From a virus, in the IMG/VR virus record IMGVR_UViG_3300035698_019761, positions 1 through 21,775 of that record: a stretch of DNA of 21,775 bases; one strand, given 5' to 3'. Positions 114 through 13,661 of the stretch are shown one piece after another. The position numbers and the translations under genes are program-made. Under the pieces are notes generated by a model that worked only from the letters and a program-made list of their open reading frames with translations, did not search any database and was not told the DNA's origin. Numbering within the stretch: position 1 is the stretch's first letter; each line of letters begins with the position of its first letter.

Positions 114-383
114 ATGGCACCAAAAGACGGGACAAATATTTCTCCTTCGTCCACCGAGAGGGCTAGAAGACTTAAAACGATCTCTAGCACTAACTCTCAC
201 AAGTTGATTGACCGGGTTTGCGAAGGGGTCGCATCACCACGACAAGTGATCAAATTGAAGTGCCAAGAATGCTGTGGTTTTGAGGACTATAAAAATAGAA
301 TAGTTAACTGCTCAAGCTATATGTGTGGAGCATGGAATTATAGACCCTACATCCCTAAACCAAAAAAACCCCAGATCAGTTAA
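114..383 (+). CDS. Small cysteine-motif phage protein (putative zinc binding)
   Basis: An 89-aa basic protein. The C-terminal half carries a compact cysteine cluster: KLKCQECCGF, then NCSSYMCGAW, then a YRPY tail. This resembles a widespread family of small phage proteins with a C-x2-C ... C-x5-C pattern followed by an aromatic/proline/arginine end. The family has no firm function; metal binding is inferred. The start is supported by AAGGA six bases upstream. Its stop codon lies inside a hairpin that terminates the convergent minus-strand lipoprotein transcript. It may belong to a plus-strand operon that begins left of the window. Confidence 0.75.
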   Translation: MAPKDGTNISPSSTERARRLKTISSTNSHKLIDRVCEGVASPRQVIKLKCQECCGFEDYKNRIVNCSSYMCGAWNYRPYIPKPKKPQIS

Positions 384-392
384 GACCTGGGG
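362..392 (-). terminator. Intrinsic terminator of the lipoprotein operon
   Basis: Read on the minus strand, 392-369 forms a 9-bp stem (CCCCAGGUC / GAUCUGGGG, one G-U pair) with the loop UUAACU. Seven U follow at 368-362. It lies 56 bases past the stop of the lipoprotein gene and overlaps the last codons and stop of the convergent 89-aa gene. On the plus strand no U tract follows, so it should act mainly on minus-strand transcripts. Confidence 0.85.
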
Positions 393-447
393 CTTACGCA
401 TAGTTAGAATGTCGATATCAATTTAGGTTGTCACAAAAATCCTAACA

Positions 448-2700
448 CTACAGTTGCCACTTGTCATGACTAGACCATAAGTCTGTTGCAAGCGGTGGCT
501 TGTAAGCATTCGCTCGATGATATGGAATCATCACGTCACGAAACCACGGCCACTCACTATGGTCTTGTCCCATTGTCTCCACTGCCTTCACCCATCCTGA
601 ATACCAAGACTGCGTGAAAGAACCTTGCGGCAATGACCAGTCATTGATCCGATGCTCACCCCCATTTTGACCATTGGGCTCAAAATAGAATTCTCTCGCA
701 TTCATATAGCTATGAAGCACTTGTTTTGATTTAACCGTTTCAAAACCATGTCGGTACATAGTCGCTAGCCAAGAAGAATGGAATCCGGTCCACCAACCAA
801 CAATACAAGCGTTATTCTCAAACGGAGCACCACTTATGTTTGTTGCATTCGGTGTAGTCCCTAAACAATACGGGTGTCGGTTGTCATTGAACACATACTC
901 CCATCCACTGAATCCGTATTGACTCACGTTTTGATCGTTTATGTTTTTATGAACTCCAACTCTTGATATCAATCTCTCCTTTAGCTTTGATGCATTCATA
1001 CTATCTGGGAAAAAAAGCAGTTGTTGTGTTGCGTCCTCTTGAACTCGAACACTTCGCTCACTACCTGGTCTAACGAAATATTGCTCAAAATCCCCTAGTT
1101 TTCCCCACACATTTAAGGCTTGACGATACACTAGTAAATCACCGATGAACGCATCACCTGTCATTTCCCATGCCGCACCTAAATGCCTCTCGCCAGCGTG
1201 TTGCTGATCCTCTCCGATCCATCCATAGTTCTCACCAATTTGAAAACCATTGTTGCCCGCTCGAACGTTTGCCTCTTGGCAATGCCCTTGGTTCCATGAT
1301 GGATCCCAATGCGGATAGTTATTCCAAAACACACAAGACGTTGGAATATGATTCAAATTCATTCGATCGTTTGAGTGCCAGAAATAAGTCGGACGATGAG
1401 TAATCATTGTTAACCCGTGCAAGTAATCCTGCAATGGACAACTACTCTCACTCGTAATGGTTTGTTGTTGCTGGAGTGGCATGTTTCCACTGAAGTGGGT
1501 TTGATCACCAGTAGCTCCAGGGAACTTAGAAACATACCTAGGGTAAGCACCACCATTAACTGTTACGTTTTCATGGCTGCCACAAAGGTATTCAACACTA
1601 CTTGCTAGCTGTTCCTTGGTTCCTCGTCCCGGCATGACCGTGCCCCATATTCCTCCAGCGAGTGAACTTGCCCAAATCTCTCTTCGGGCGACTCCAATAA
1701 GTGGATCAGCTGATTCAGCTTCCGCGCTTTGTCTCCCCAGTTCACCCGAATGAATGGACATACTCCATTGTCCTCGGAAAGTACGTGCAGATCCGTCTGC
1801 AATTGAATGAGTTCCCATAAGACGTAGTTTTTTATATCCGTTCGCATCTTTGACCCCCCAGTCTCCAACTTGATACTTATCCTTATTTCTGATACTAAAC
1901 GTCATCGGATCAAAAGCAACTAGGTCTATGCTTTTTACACTAACCCCCCCACTAACAGGGTTCTCCCAATCATCATTACCAACTGATACAACCATCTCAC
2001 CGTGGTCTTGACGATTATGGATATTCATATAAACGGTGTAAGAAAGCCTAGTTTTCTCTCCGTTTTCCTTATGAAATGCTTTTCTCCACCTAAGCTCCAT
2101 TCCGTGTGTTCCCTGGTAAAGAACTTTAGCGTTTTGGAAAAACGGTGCATAAGCTTTTGTTCCATCACTTAGCTCGGCAGCCATGAATATCGCAGTGTCC
2201 AAGTTGGCGTTTTGTAAATACGCATACAAGATCGGACCCCAAGCAAATGGAAGTGGATTTGCCTTAGGCGTCCCATTCATCACGTTCATAACCAGGGTTT
2301 GATTTGGTTCCATGTAAATAGGGAAACGAAGCTGCCCAATAGCGATACTTGATTTATCTCCCCACCACTTCAACACCTTCCAATCATAAGCCCCATGCCC
2401 AGGGTGGTATTGTTTTAATGCCGCTTCGCTTGGCACCAATCCAACAGCAAAAGGAATAGACACCACTGCCCACTGGATTCTAGCCTTATTGGTGCGATTC
2501 TTTAGTGTGAATTGAGTGTAGAGAGTCTGGTCTTCTTCCACTGGCTCTGGTGCAACGCGCACAGCCTTTACATCTGCTACACTTAAAGATGCCATGCCAG
2601 CGTCAAAAAACGGTTTAGGCATCTCTTTTATGGGTTTTACTTCGGGCGTAGAACTACACCCTATTAGGGCCAAGAGCCCCAATGTAACTAATTTCTTCAT
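448..2700 (-). CDS. Large phage-encoded lipoprotein, putative polysaccharide lyase/hydrolase (PcRGLX/YetA-like, tentative)
   Basis: A 750-aa protein with a clear lipoprotein signal: Met-Lys-Lys, a short hydrophobic stretch and the lipobox L12-I13-G14-C15. Serine at +2 favours outer-membrane sorting. Residues about 60-130 read like the N-terminal beta-barrel of PcRGLX/YetA-like exo-rhamnogalacturonan lyase relatives: an IPFAVG segment at 82-87, then WWGDKSSIAIGQLRF at 112-126, matching the family style of 'PF..G ... W.DGS..W...F'. The C-terminal 350 residues are rich in Trp, His, Tyr and Asn with helical spacing, as in an alpha/alpha toroid of glycan-active enzymes. The family call is from pattern memory only. 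The start has AAGGGG seven bases upstream. The gene lies 49 bases after a small RHH gene, outside the virion operon, and ends at a strong terminator. It may be a cell-surface-modifying moron gene (for example receptor removal), which is inference. Confidence 0.6.
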   Translation of the reverse strand: MKKLVTLGLLALIGCSSTPEVKPIKEMPKPFFDAGMASLSVADVKAVRVAPEPVEEDQTLYTQFTLKNRTNKARIQWAVVSIPFAVGLVPSEAALKQYHPGHGAYDWKVLKWWGDKSSIAIGQLRFPIYMEPNQTLVMNVMNGTPKANPLPFAWGPILYAYLQNANLDTAIFMAAELSDGTKAYAPFFQNAKVLYQGTHGMELRWRKAFHKENGEKTRLSYTVYMNIHNRQDHGEMVVSVGNDDWENPVSGGVSVKSIDLVAFDPMTFSIRNKDKYQVGDWGVKDANGYKKLRLMGTHSIADGSARTFRGQWSMSIHSGELGRQSAEAESADPLIGVARREIWASSLAGGIWGTVMPGRGTKEQLASSVEYLCGSHENVTVNGGAYPRYVSKFPGATGDQTHFSGNMPLQQQQTITSESSCPLQDYLHGLTMITHRPTYFWHSNDRMNLNHIPTSCVFWNNYPHWDPSWNQGHCQEANVRAGNNGFQIGENYGWIGEDQQHAGERHLGAAWEMTGDAFIGDLLVYRQALNVWGKLGDFEQYFVRPGSERSVRVQEDATQQLLFFPDSMNASKLKERLISRVGVHKNINDQNVSQYGFSGWEYVFNDNRHPYCLGTTPNATNISGAPFENNACIVGWWTGFHSSWLATMYRHGFETVKSKQVLHSYMNAREFYFEPNGQNGGEHRINDWSLPQGSFTQSWYSGWVKAVETMGQDHSEWPWFRDVMIPYHRANAYKPPLATDLWSSHDKWQL

Positions 2701-2727
2701 TTTGATCCCCTTAATTAGGTTTGTTTA

Positions 2728-2741
2728 TATGCTTTTGCATA
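2728..2741. promoter_or_regulatory. Palindrome between the RHH and lipoprotein genes, candidate operator
   Basis: TATGC-TTTT-GCATA is a perfect inverted repeat of 5-bp arms. It lies in the 49-base gap between the stop of the RHH gene (2750) and the lipoprotein start (2700). Its outer TATG...CATA matches the palindrome on the other side of the RHH gene at 2931-2943. RHH proteins bind short palindromes, so autoregulation or separate control of the lipoprotein is a reasonable inference. Confidence 0.4.
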
Positions 2742-2749
2742 CCCTAACT

Positions 2750-2920
2750 CTAAAGGACTCGATGGCTTAATACACGCTCTATTCTCTTAGCTATCGCATC
2801 GCGCATGAATTCGCTCGGGGTCATTCCACTTTCCTTGGCCGCCGCCTTGATTCGCTTCCCCATTTCAGTGAAACACCGAAATGAAACAGTTAGCTCAAAA
2901 TCCTTTTTTTTCTTTGGCAT
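2750..2920 (-). CDS. Ribbon-helix-helix (CopG/Arc-like) DNA-binding protein
   Basis: A 56-aa frame. It starts at ATG 2920 with MPKKKKDFELTVSFRCF and ends RIERVLSHRVL. The layout is that of an RHH repressor: a basic N-terminal arm, a beta strand around residues 9-16 (ELTVSFRC), helix A around 18-31 (TEMGKRIKAAAKES), the turn G32-M-T-P-S, and helix B around 35-51 (SEFMRDAIAKRIERVL). No strong Shine-Dalgarno is seen. It lies directly upstream of, and co-directional with, the lipoprotein gene and divergent from the ERF gene. Palindromes on both sides are candidate operators. It probably controls this divergent region. Confidence 0.8.
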   Translation of the reverse strand: MPKKKKDFELTVSFRCFTEMGKRIKAAAKESGMTPSEFMRDAIAKRIERVLSHRVL

Positions 2921-2981: not shown

Positions 2982-3635
2982 ATGAAAACATCGGAATCAA
3001 TCCTAGAACTAGCCAAGGCAATGTCAAAGATGCAGGGAGAGCTTGGTCCCGCTGAGAAGAACAGAACGAATAATCATTTTGGAAATAAATATGCTGACAT
3101 AGACTCACTCAGGAAGGCTTCCAGAAAGCCTTTAGCTGACAACGGTCTATTCGTTTCTCACCCGACCGAGACTTTAGAAAATGGTAAAGTGGTGATGAAT
3201 GCCATAATTGTTCATTCATCTGGTCAATTCCTTCAAATGACCTATCCAATTAATCCTGTTAGGCAGGACCCGCAAGGTCTTAAGAGTGCCATGACCTATG
3301 CTGAACGTGTGACCTTAATGGCATTGACTGGTTTGACTGATGGTGAAGACGACGACGGAAATTTAGCTTCCGGTAAAGGAGAAACATCTGAACCATATGA
3401 AAAAGAAGCTCAACCCATAGTTAACCTTCCAATCCCAAAAGCAACCACCCCACCTGTAAATAGATTCAAGCCAGTTGAATTAGCAATGAAGGATAACTCT
3501 CACTGGTCCAAAGATTCAGTGGCCGAGTATTGCCTTAAGCAATATGGGAAAAAAGGAAACGAACTCACTTGTGAAGAGATTAATGAGTTAGCAAAACATA
3601 TCTCAGTAGCTAAGACCGGTGGGAATAATGGCTGA
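2982..3635 (+). CDS. erf: ERF-family single-strand DNA annealing protein
   Basis: A 217-aa protein. Residues 1-126 match the ERF superfamily of phage recombinases (P22 Erf type), which anneal complementary single strands in recombination-dependent replication and genome circularisation. Visible signatures, in order: helical LELAKAMSKMQ, then HFGNKYADI (32-40), a DNGLFV strand (53-58), HSSGQ (78-82), the diagnostic QGLKSAMTYAERVTL (98-112), and an acidic DGEDDDG loop (120-126). The remaining 90 residues are a proline-rich linker and a small C-terminal helical domain, probably for partner binding. GGAG lies 11 bases before the ATG. It is the first gene of a plus-strand cluster and overlaps the next gene by 8 bases, indicating translational coupling. 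It is divergent from the RHH repressor gene. Confidence 0.9.
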   Translation: MKTSESILELAKAMSKMQGELGPAEKNRTNNHFGNKYADIDSLRKASRKPLADNGLFVSHPTETLENGKVVMNAIIVHSSGQFLQMTYPINPVRQDPQGLKSAMTYAERVTLMALTGLTDGEDDDGNLASGKGETSEPYEKEAQPIVNLPIPKATTPPVNRFKPVELAMKDNSHWSKDSVAEYCLKQYGKKGNELTCEEINELAKHISVAKTGGNNG

Positions 3636-3837
3636 ACGATACAAATGCAGGCACTGTAATGGGACGGGAAAAACCCCGTCAATAGACCCAATAACCATGC
3701 GCAAATTCAAATGCAACCATTGTAGGGGTGAAGGTGTCACAGGGGATGCTATGGATTACGAGTATGAGCAAAATAAAGACGATTGGAAAGTCATACAAGA
3801 CGCTTACAATGACGCTGAAAGATATAGCTCAAGGTAA
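3628..3837 (+). CDS. Small DnaJ-type zinc-ribbon protein
   Basis: A 69-aa protein. It has two CxxCxGxG-like knuckles: C7-x2-C10-NGTG and C29-x2-C32-RGEG, separated by 18 residues and followed by an acidic, Tyr-rich helical tail. This is the zinc-binding unit seen in the DnaJ cysteine-rich domain and in many small phage proteins. The ATG at 3628 is preferred over an upstream in-frame GTG because GGTGGG sits just before it. It overlaps the end of the ERF gene. Its partner is unknown; the neighbourhood suggests a role in DNA replication or recombination. Confidence 0.75.
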   Translation: MAERYKCRHCNGTGKTPSIDPITMRKFKCNHCRGEGVTGDAMDYEYEQNKDDWKVIQDAYNDAERYSSR

Positions 3838-4258: not shown

Positions 4259-4750
4259 ATGGACTGTTATGTGTGCCATGGGATGGGCACGGTCTCAAGA
4301 AAAGACCCGGTCCTGCTCAGAGAAACTACAATCAATTGTTATGAATGTAAGCGAGGGGCTATGACTAAAGTTTCCGATTCAAGTAAAGTTCTATTCTTGG
4401 ACCCTTACCGTCTGCGTACCTCTTTGCAGCGACTATCTCAACTAACTGAGAATCGTCTTCAAATAGGACTCCGTTTGCGGAATCAAATAGCGACTTTAAG
4501 AGGTTATCAAGATCAGGCTTCACAATTGGATATTTCGGATGTTTCGGCTTTGCTGGCCGAGGTAAGTAAAATACAAGCCTTGCTTTTAGAGGACCTTGAT
4601 ATGGCTGCTCAGGCCTCTGGTGAAGTCGGCATATTAGCGAAACCGCTGCTTCAAACTCTCGGGTCCGAGACGGGGTATAACATTTTCCCGACCGAGAAAA
4701 CCTATGTCTACCTTTTGAGATCGGGTTTAAGGAAAAACGATTTTCATTAA
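4259..4750 (+). CDS. Second zinc-ribbon protein, with a reading frame that runs antisense through RusA
   Basis: The first 35 residues are a second zinc-ribbon unit like the gene at 3628: C3-x2-C6-HGMG and C27-x2-C30-KRG. This part is convincing. From about 4365 on, the frame (163 aa in all) lies wholly antisense to the RusA region on the minus strand and gives a Leu/Gln-rich sequence with no recognisable domain, probably not a true protein. One extra G in the G4 run at 4355-4358 would change the end to ...CKRGGYD and stop at a TAA at 4366-4368, exactly where RusA stops (4365). The natural gene may therefore be about 36 aa at 4259-4368. GGGGAG lies just before the ATG; a GTG at 4247 is also in frame. 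Confidence 0.5.
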   Translation: MDCYVCHGMGTVSRKDPVLLRETTINCYECKRGAMTKVSDSSKVLFLDPYRLRTSLQRLSQLTENRLQIGLRLRNQIATLRGYQDQASQLDISDVSALLAEVSKIQALLLEDLDMAAQASGEVGILAKPLLQTLGSETGYNIFPTEKTYVYLLRSGLRKNDFH

Positions 4751-5614: not shown

Positions 5615-5886
5615 TACTTCTGCACCTCAGCCATAACAGCCATAACAACTTCCATTCCTTCAGAGAATGAAATGTCCTTAATCTCTTCTGGAACCATTCC
5701 AATGTCGGCAATCGCCTTATCAACCAAAGCTTTGAACTCTGGGTTTCCTGTGTATTGACTCATGAGCATCATTGCATCACTCATCTGAACACCATCTTTT
5801 ACTAGCACTAAAATGTGTTTGGTTAATGCAGTCAATGCCACTGCTAATTCTTTTACGTTCTTTACATCTCTTGTTTCTTCAGCCAT
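5614..5886 (-). CDS. Conserved-type small phage protein next to the endolysin, function unknown
   Basis: A 90-aa acidic helical protein. The start is taken at ATG 5886, which shares one base with the TAA of the amidase gene (TAATG); five more in-frame codons upstream are unlikely to be used. The layout (VKELAVALTALTKHILVLVKDG, then NPEFKALVDKAIADI, then VPEEIKDISFSEGMEVV) resembles a type of small phage protein often found beside endolysins whose function is not established to my knowledge. No signal or clear membrane segment is visible. Confidence 0.65.
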   Translation of the reverse strand: MAEETRDVKNVKELAVALTALTKHILVLVKDGVQMSDAMMLMSQYTGNPEFKALVDKAIADIGMVPEEIKDISFSEGMEVVMAVMAEVQK

Positions 5887-6362
5887 TAGTCTTCTCCCCA
5901 TTTGTTAATTAAATTCTCTCTCACCGCATCAAAGTCATTATGCATGTACCAGATCAACAACTTCCCTATGTTTATATTAGGACACGTTTTCTTTGAGTCA
6001 AACTCATTATGGCACCTAATATTCCAAGGCTTTATATTATACAACTGACCTAGCGCATCAAGGTAGTATCTAAGTGTGTGAAATTGATCTCTAGTGAAAC
6101 GCGAGGTGCCTATGAGGCAAATACCTATATTTAAGCCTAAAACACCGTCTATTTCGATCTTATTATTTCCCTTAACATGAGCCCCTAACTTGTTAAACCC
6201 ACGCCCTTGCTGCCATTCACCATCCGGCTGTATCACTCCATGATACCCAACACCCTTCCATCCACGTTCTCTATGCCACTTATCAATTACTGATATATCG
6301 CAACCATGTTGATCCGGTGTTGCGGAACAGTGCACGGTTACGACTAATGGTTTTAGAATCAT
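5886..6362 (-). CDS. N-acetylmuramoyl-L-alanine amidase endolysin (Amidase_2, T7 lysozyme type)
   Basis: A 158-aa protein covering one Amidase_2 domain, the usual length for T7-type lysozymes. It cleaves the amide bond between muramic acid and L-alanine in peptidoglycan for host lysis. Zinc ligands are H11 (VTVHCSAT), H118 (RCHNEFD) and C127. Y40 (GVGYHGVI) and K125, two residues before the cysteine, match the catalytic Tyr and Lys of T7 lysozyme (H17, Y46, H122, K128, C130). No signal peptide is present, so a holin or other release route is needed, but none is clearly identified. AAAGGG precedes the ATG. First gene of the lysis block, 47 bases after the fibre gene. Confidence 0.92.
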   Translation of the reverse strand: MILKPLVVTVHCSATPDQHGCDISVIDKWHRERGWKGVGYHGVIQPDGEWQQGRGFNKLGAHVKGNNKIEIDGVLGLNIGICLIGTSRFTRDQFHTLRYYLDALGQLYNIKPWNIRCHNEFDSKKTCPNINIGKLLIWYMHNDFDAVRENLINKWGED

Positions 6363-13404: not shown

Positions 13405-13466
13405 ACTAAACGAATAGCATGAGGCTCGTTGCACGCACAATTCTTTTGTTGTACATTTTGTGTAAC

Positions 13467-13661
13467 ATGGATGAAATAAAGAAACGTAAGTTCGATAAGT
13501 GGATGGGGTGCAGACTAGACGAAAGACTCTACAAGGAGGTCGAAGTTTACGCTGATATCTACGCCGAAGGGCATAAGAGCAAATTCGTGAGGCACTGCAT
13601 TAGAACCTTCATAGACAAATGTGAACGTGAGTTCCTAAAGAAAAAGCCCCGAAGGAAATAA
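13467..13661 (+). CDS. Small ribbon-helix-helix-like protein on the opposite strand inside the tail operon
   Basis: A 64-aa basic protein from ATG 13467 (MDEIKKRKFDKWMGCRLDERL). A frame opening 16 codons upstream is hydrophobic and unlikely. The layout suggests an RHH DNA-binding domain: a basic arm, a strand around W12-L17, helix A around 19-30 (ERLYKEVEVYAD), a G-H-K turn, and helix B (SKFVRHCIRTFIDKCERE), then a Lys/Arg-rich tail. A weak plus-strand promoter is possible: TTGCAC, a 17-base spacer, TACATT, ending about 9 bases before the ATG, which would give an almost leaderless mRNA. No Shine-Dalgarno is seen. It sits against the flow of the late operon, between tail tube and chaperone genes. 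Confidence 0.65.
   Translation: MDEIKKRKFDKWMGCRLDERLYKEVEVYADIYAEGHKSKFVRHCIRTFIDKCEREFLKKKPRRK

Follow-up and report, generated by a model that had tools for sequence, protein, structure and literature searches.

The window analyzed here, meaning the whole stretch of DNA under study, corresponds to a full IMG/VR record, 21,775 bases long, from an uncultivated bacterial virus; it has no end repeats and is therefore probably a genome fragment. Virion and lysis genes occupy about 4.9 to 21.8 kb on the minus strand, starting with the portal gene at the right end, and beyond the amidase gene more minus-strand genes run down to a RusA-like gene ending at 4365. To the left of the erf-type annealing gene, and divergent from it, lie two genes encoding a small RHH protein and a 750-aa lipoprotein. 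The features to which the text refers are listed below.

366-395, minus strand: intrinsic terminator closing the cassette, with a U run after it (-20.1 kcal/mol, z -4.4)
448-2700, minus strand: gene for the 750-aa lipoprotein (ORF with ATG start, AAGGGG just upstream)
1198-1314, minus strand: family motif segment, codons 463-501 (Pro463/His464, Trp494, Asp498-x-Gln-His501)
2016-2034: third copy of GTTTATATG, as GTTTATATG-N6-CATA, within the lipoprotein gene; resembles the intergenic copy
2656-2700, minus strand: signal peptide II and lipobox MKKLVTLGLLALIGC as read from the sequence, with Cys15 as predicted lipidation site and Ser at +2
2723-2741: second operator-like dyad, GTTTATATGCTTTTGCATA, in the gap between the RHH and lipoprotein genes
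2750-2920, minus strand: gene for a 56-aa RHH (CopG/NikA-type) DNA-binding protein, from Pfam matches over cut-off
2925-2949: operator-like inverted repeat in the intergenic stretch shared by the RHH gene and the divergent erf gene; in minus-strand reading GGTTTATATGTA-T-TACATAAAGACC
2982-3635, plus strand: erf-type annealing gene, first gene of the early block
5886-6362, minus strand: amidase endolysin gene

Organization of the lipoprotein cassette

An earlier note on this DNA had described the RHH and lipoprotein genes as a minus-strand unit outside the virion operon, with palindromes on both sides of the RHH gene and a strong terminator at its end. Both ORFs were found where the note placed them, and the terminator was confirmed at 366-395, just beyond the span of 448-2920 assigned to the unit. 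The separation from the virion genes was borne out as well: several genes and 3.7 kb stand between the last structural gene and the lipoprotein gene, the early genes among them. The small protein exceeded the Pfam cut-offs for both RHH_1 (PF01402; 23.3 bits, cut-off 20.5) and NikA-like (PF21983; 30.3 bits, cut-off 27). Elsewhere in the window, an 80-aa plus-strand ORF at 13419-13661, within the minus-strand virion operon, also has an RHH/Arc-like look and a weak Pfam Arc_C match (E 0.088); it may be a second repressor or a gene placed in antisense.

The palindromes were recovered at 2925-2949 and in the gap between the RHH and lipoprotein genes. The former has 12-nt arms matching at 83%, and 10 of 1000 shuffles of the same intergenic stretch showed such a dyad; the latter contains the palindrome TATGC-TTTT-GCATA. 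Three exact copies of the 9-mer GTTTATATG are present in the window, all of them within the cassette (2723-2731, 2940-2948, and 2026-2034), while three copies were seen in 0 of 100 shuffles (mean 0.24). The copies at 2723-2731 and 2940-2948 are parts of the dyads flanking the RHH gene; the third, inside the lipoprotein gene, may be there by chance. The natural inference from the dyads is that the RHH protein would repress its own synthesis and perhaps control the erf operon as well.

The N-terminus of the 750-aa protein, MKKLVTLGLLALIGC followed by SS, carries a canonical lipobox (L-I-G-C) and has Ser at +2; direct reading identified the n-region Lys, the hydrophobic core, and the [LVI][ASTVI][GAS]C lipobox expected of a lipoprotein. 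A comparable lipobox, LTLLAC followed by SD, is present in the relative from L021 described below. Ser at +2 is the signal for outer-membrane sorting in hosts with a Lol-type system, and the protein is predicted to be an outer-membrane lipoprotein.

A divergent family in phages and Planctomycetota

The 750-aa protein had no Pfam, NCBIfam, or PHROG family match and no sequence match in the PDB. Searches by tblastn of cultured phages and plasmids returned nothing, as did scans of viral and genome contigs with the single protein. The first relative (28% identical, E 7e-26) was reached through the capsid gene, on viral contig L003/G002. On this contig (1-7248), a terminase-portal block stands head-on to an inverted capsid block with a truncated portal (285 aa); the contig looks chimeric or inverted, and its capsid kinship with the window is therefore a poor guide to the genome in which the enzyme relative resides. 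Further relatives were obtained by spaced-motif scans on the shared D-x-Q-H...TGD segment, which recovered L021/G008, L013/G006, and L019/G007, then L060, L062, L063, L064, and L065. Relatives are carried by nine further viral records and by several Planctomycetota genomes. Most other matches of the first motif scan were due to chance or to an unrelated large phage protein, and two gamma-glutamyltranspeptidases in the Pfam scan of the relatives were neighboring genes rather than family members. None of the members scanned received a Pfam assignment above cut-off, and the L063 and G007 relatives used as queries matched no cultured phage.

Across 12 members, G398, R436, P437, P463, D498, H501, T514, and G515 (window numbering) are invariant, with Pro463, Asp498, and His501 of the motif segment present in 12/12 aligned relatives. 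T397, Q400, W459, W494, R549, and D606 are nearly invariant, and most relatives have FW..RPH at Pro463/His464. That these members, very divergent as they are, all keep the Asp, His, and Arg suggests a conserved active site.

The nearest relative, from L021/G008, is 36-38% identical to the window protein, likewise 750 aa long, and also of the lipidated type; the two form a sister clade with support of 100/100. Next to this clade in the tree are the proteins of G006 and G007, which have no leader, and that of G002, which is truncated at its N-terminus. N-terminal signals of the relatives were read by eye. Sec-type signals were assigned to L060, L062, and L065, and no signal peptide was found in L063, L064, G006, or G007. 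Two more large phage lipoproteins, of 466 and 461 aa, were observed at 9381-10778 of L033 and 15268-16650 of L035; they have the lipoboxes LLTAC and FLTAC, respectively, and no Pfam match, and are encoded by the phages in which the leaderless relatives of the window protein occur.

Gene neighborhoods differ among the carriers. Compared with the window, G006 and G008 have unrelated virion genes and G007 only weakly related ones, so the lipoprotein gene behaves as an accessory gene. Capsid, terminase, amidase, and tape-measure matches, taken as pointers to the host, led to unrelated phage groups. G008 and the window have part of their non-virion neighborhood in common, and a lysis-region protein of 92-95 aa is 29% identical between them. 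A small protein with two CxxC pairs and a DnaJ-like zinc-finger look was also noted in the window (3619-3837, plus strand) and in L021 (9144-9356, plus strand) (33%, E 2e-7); its place close to the gene for the annealing protein is kept although the phages are unrelated in other respects. In L021 the lipoprotein gene runs with recombination genes. The proposal that the RHH and lipoprotein genes form a paired system did not extend to the relatives, with no RHH gene recognized beside the family gene in G006, G007, or G008.

The most telling arrangement was found in L063, where a tail-tip operon (tail proteins phrog_1101, 329, 778, and 1082) ends in overlap with the leaderless gene, via short ATGA-type junctions. 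The placement outside the virion genes claimed by the earlier note therefore stands for the window gene and fails for this distant relative. In the tree, L063 groups with Planctomycetota proteins as a separate subfamily, and phages have thus probably taken up the PL26-like fold described below more than once.

The Planctomycetota relatives were found by profile search (L043, L044), with 7 of 392 genomes matching at E <= 1e-6. These proteins (L043, L044, and L045-L059) have the same two-part architecture and motifs as the phage proteins and are homologous to them by profile. In contrast to the window protein, they are chromosomal and have a Sec-type export signal in place of a lipobox (N-terminus read in L043 and L044); they have no family assignment. 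Planctomycetota genomes often hold two or three divergent PL26-like proteins of this set, from at least two subfamilies. From their sequences, they represent an unannotated, putative cellular enzyme family, with no Pfam assignment above cut-off in those scanned.

Predicted fold and relation to PL26

Structure prediction from the single sequence was useless (pLDDT 33), and an AlphaFold model was built from the alignment of 12 relatives (mean pLDDT 68, pTM 0.78; parts of the toroid below 50). After a proline-rich linker reaching to about residue 50, the modeled protein is divided into a RIFT-barrel/beta domain at about 58-315 and an (alpha/alpha) toroid at about 320-750. In Foldseek searches of the PDB, the first 13 matches were all chains of PcRGLX, the PL26 exo-rhamnogalacturonan lyase of Penicillium chrysogenum (PDB 5XQO, 5XQG, 5XQJ, 5XQ3), the best at E 8.9e-9 with prob 1.00. 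VIA-align superposed 534 residues of the model (23-714) on the PcRGLX chain (26-916) with Z 13.4 and rmsd 4.5, against Z 8.7 for the next unrelated fold. The earlier note had guessed at a PcRGLX-like enzyme, and for the fold this guess proved sound; one of its named counter-indications was a tail-spike fold, and the best PDB match of the model is PL26 instead. The best BFVD match was A0A516M318, a 738-aa viral protein without a name (E 1.9e-14, TM 0.56-0.58). Further resemblances are to GH38 beta domains for the N-terminal beta part of the model and to many (alpha/alpha) toroid enzymes for its C-terminal part; middling Z scores to GH76, GH105, GH88, and epimerases reflect the common toroid and are not taken as a sign of function.

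The likeness to PcRGLX covers the predicted full-length fold, the domain order, the W-x-D-x-S strand of the N-terminal RIFT-like barrel, and the toroid C-terminal half. In contrast, the window protein is only about 10% identical to PcRGLX, about 150 residues shorter, and undetected by the Pfam models: PF19501, PF21345, and PF21346 for PcRGLX/YetA-like proteins matched nothing in the window, even with E allowed up to 10, and none of the 5 phage members examined. It also differs in its conserved RPH...GW..D.QH segment, its lipid anchor, and its carriage by a phage. Sub-threshold Pfam leads in the relatives were weak and included PcRGLX_1st (E 0.031) and the toroid families GH76, GH127, and GH88.

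Profile comparison, which makes no use of structure, reached PL26 through the Planctomycetota relatives. A profile of these proteins aligned over 567 columns (prob 98.4%) with Planctomycetota proteins that pass PcRGLX_3rd, and a joint phage and Planctomycetota profile aligned with the same proteins over 525 columns (prob 96.5%), while a profile of five phage proteins alone gave prob 5% against PL26. By way of these intermediates, the comparison supports a distant homology to PL26, which the phage proteins by themselves do not show. With fair confidence for the fold, we regard the modeled 750-aa protein as a distant PL26-like relative and not as a proven PL26 member; the phage proteins would then constitute a new, unannotated family of phage-borne proteins with a predicted PL26 fold and a lipid-anchored branch.

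Possible roles at the host surface

The safest statement, given the predicted fold, is that the protein is probably a lipid-tethered polysaccharide-active enzyme working on glycans at or near the infected cell. Beyond this, we tentatively favor, at somewhat under an even chance, an accessory phage gene whose membrane-tethered product trims the host envelope or nearby glycans, blocking late-arriving phages and freeing progeny. During infection, the protein would be exported through Sec and lipidated at Cys15, and Ser at +2 would sort it to the outer membrane. There the toroid cleft may cut a rhamnose/uronate-type chain in host capsule, exopolysaccharide, or LPS. The phage would most likely gain from the loss of glycan on the infected cell, in that late phages could not adsorb and progeny would not be trapped on debris. 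Through the dyads, the RHH protein would act as repressor of the operon it belongs to and perhaps also of the divergent erf operon.

The main rival is host feeding by an auxiliary metabolic gene, whose tethered product would break down pectin-like or algal polysaccharide from the environment, to the indirect benefit of the phage. The known substrate of PL26 is plant rhamnogalacturonan, tethering would hold products near the cell, and the closest cellular relatives belong to Planctomycetota, which often carry two or three per genome, with export signals where these were read (L043, L044). However, transporter, sugar-processing, or other CAZyme genes were not recognized in the 21.8-kb window and lytic infection leaves little time to feed, and we consider this role possible but clearly less likely than trimming of surface glycans. 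It is more improbable still that the product is a lipoprotein without catalytic activity that binds glycan and so masks or jams a receptor. Phage lipoproteins that exclude superinfection do act by binding, as with the small, periplasmic T5 Llp, which blocks FhuA (PMC9586334), but the invariant Asp, His, and Arg point to an active site, and a length of 750 aa is far above the Llp-type size. The window protein shares with T5 Llp and T1 Cor that it is a phage-encoded lipoprotein made outside the virion, and departs from these small lipoproteins in its enzyme-like fold.

A component of the particle, such as a virion depolymerase or tail-associated enzyme, is also unlikely. The L063 relative with its tail-tip overlap and the G006, G007, and L064 versions, likewise without signal peptide, would suit this reading, but the window version combines a signal peptide II with a terminator of its own, lies beyond the early genes at a distance from the structural genes, and belongs to a different subfamily from L063. 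Phage capsule depolymerases and tailspikes, which are likewise phage-encoded and likely act on surface polysaccharide, are usually beta-helical virion trimers. The window protein instead combines a RIFT barrel and toroid with a lipoprotein signal, and is encoded in its own unit outside the virion genes; the tail-module location, missing signal peptide, and beta-helix of tailspikes were not found in it. Least probable by far is a conversion factor of the lysogenic stage, in which an RHH-controlled change of the lysogen surface has no lytic role. Morons typically come as separate units that bring along a repressor-like gene and a terminator, as the cassette does, yet neither an integrase nor a lysogeny repressor was seen in the window, which is a fragment record, and the L021 gene runs with recombination genes.

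Trimming of surface glycans by a tethered enzyme thus remains our preferred reading. A wider version of it, which we put forward as doubtful, is a new phage enzyme family aimed variously by lipid anchor, Sec signal, or tail operon, whose anchored branch would provide enzymatic superinfection exclusion and progeny release rather than receptor jamming. None of the Pfam, NCBIfam, and PHROG models scanned detects the family, which has therefore probably been overlooked in viral surveys; the motif and alignment make it searchable. Phage lipoproteins known to alter the host surface are small and act by binding, and the glycan enzymes known from phages are mostly on the particle. A large lipid-tethered enzyme, if true, would add a third arrangement to these two and might indicate that phages adopt one enzyme fold and re-aim it by swapping the N-terminus.
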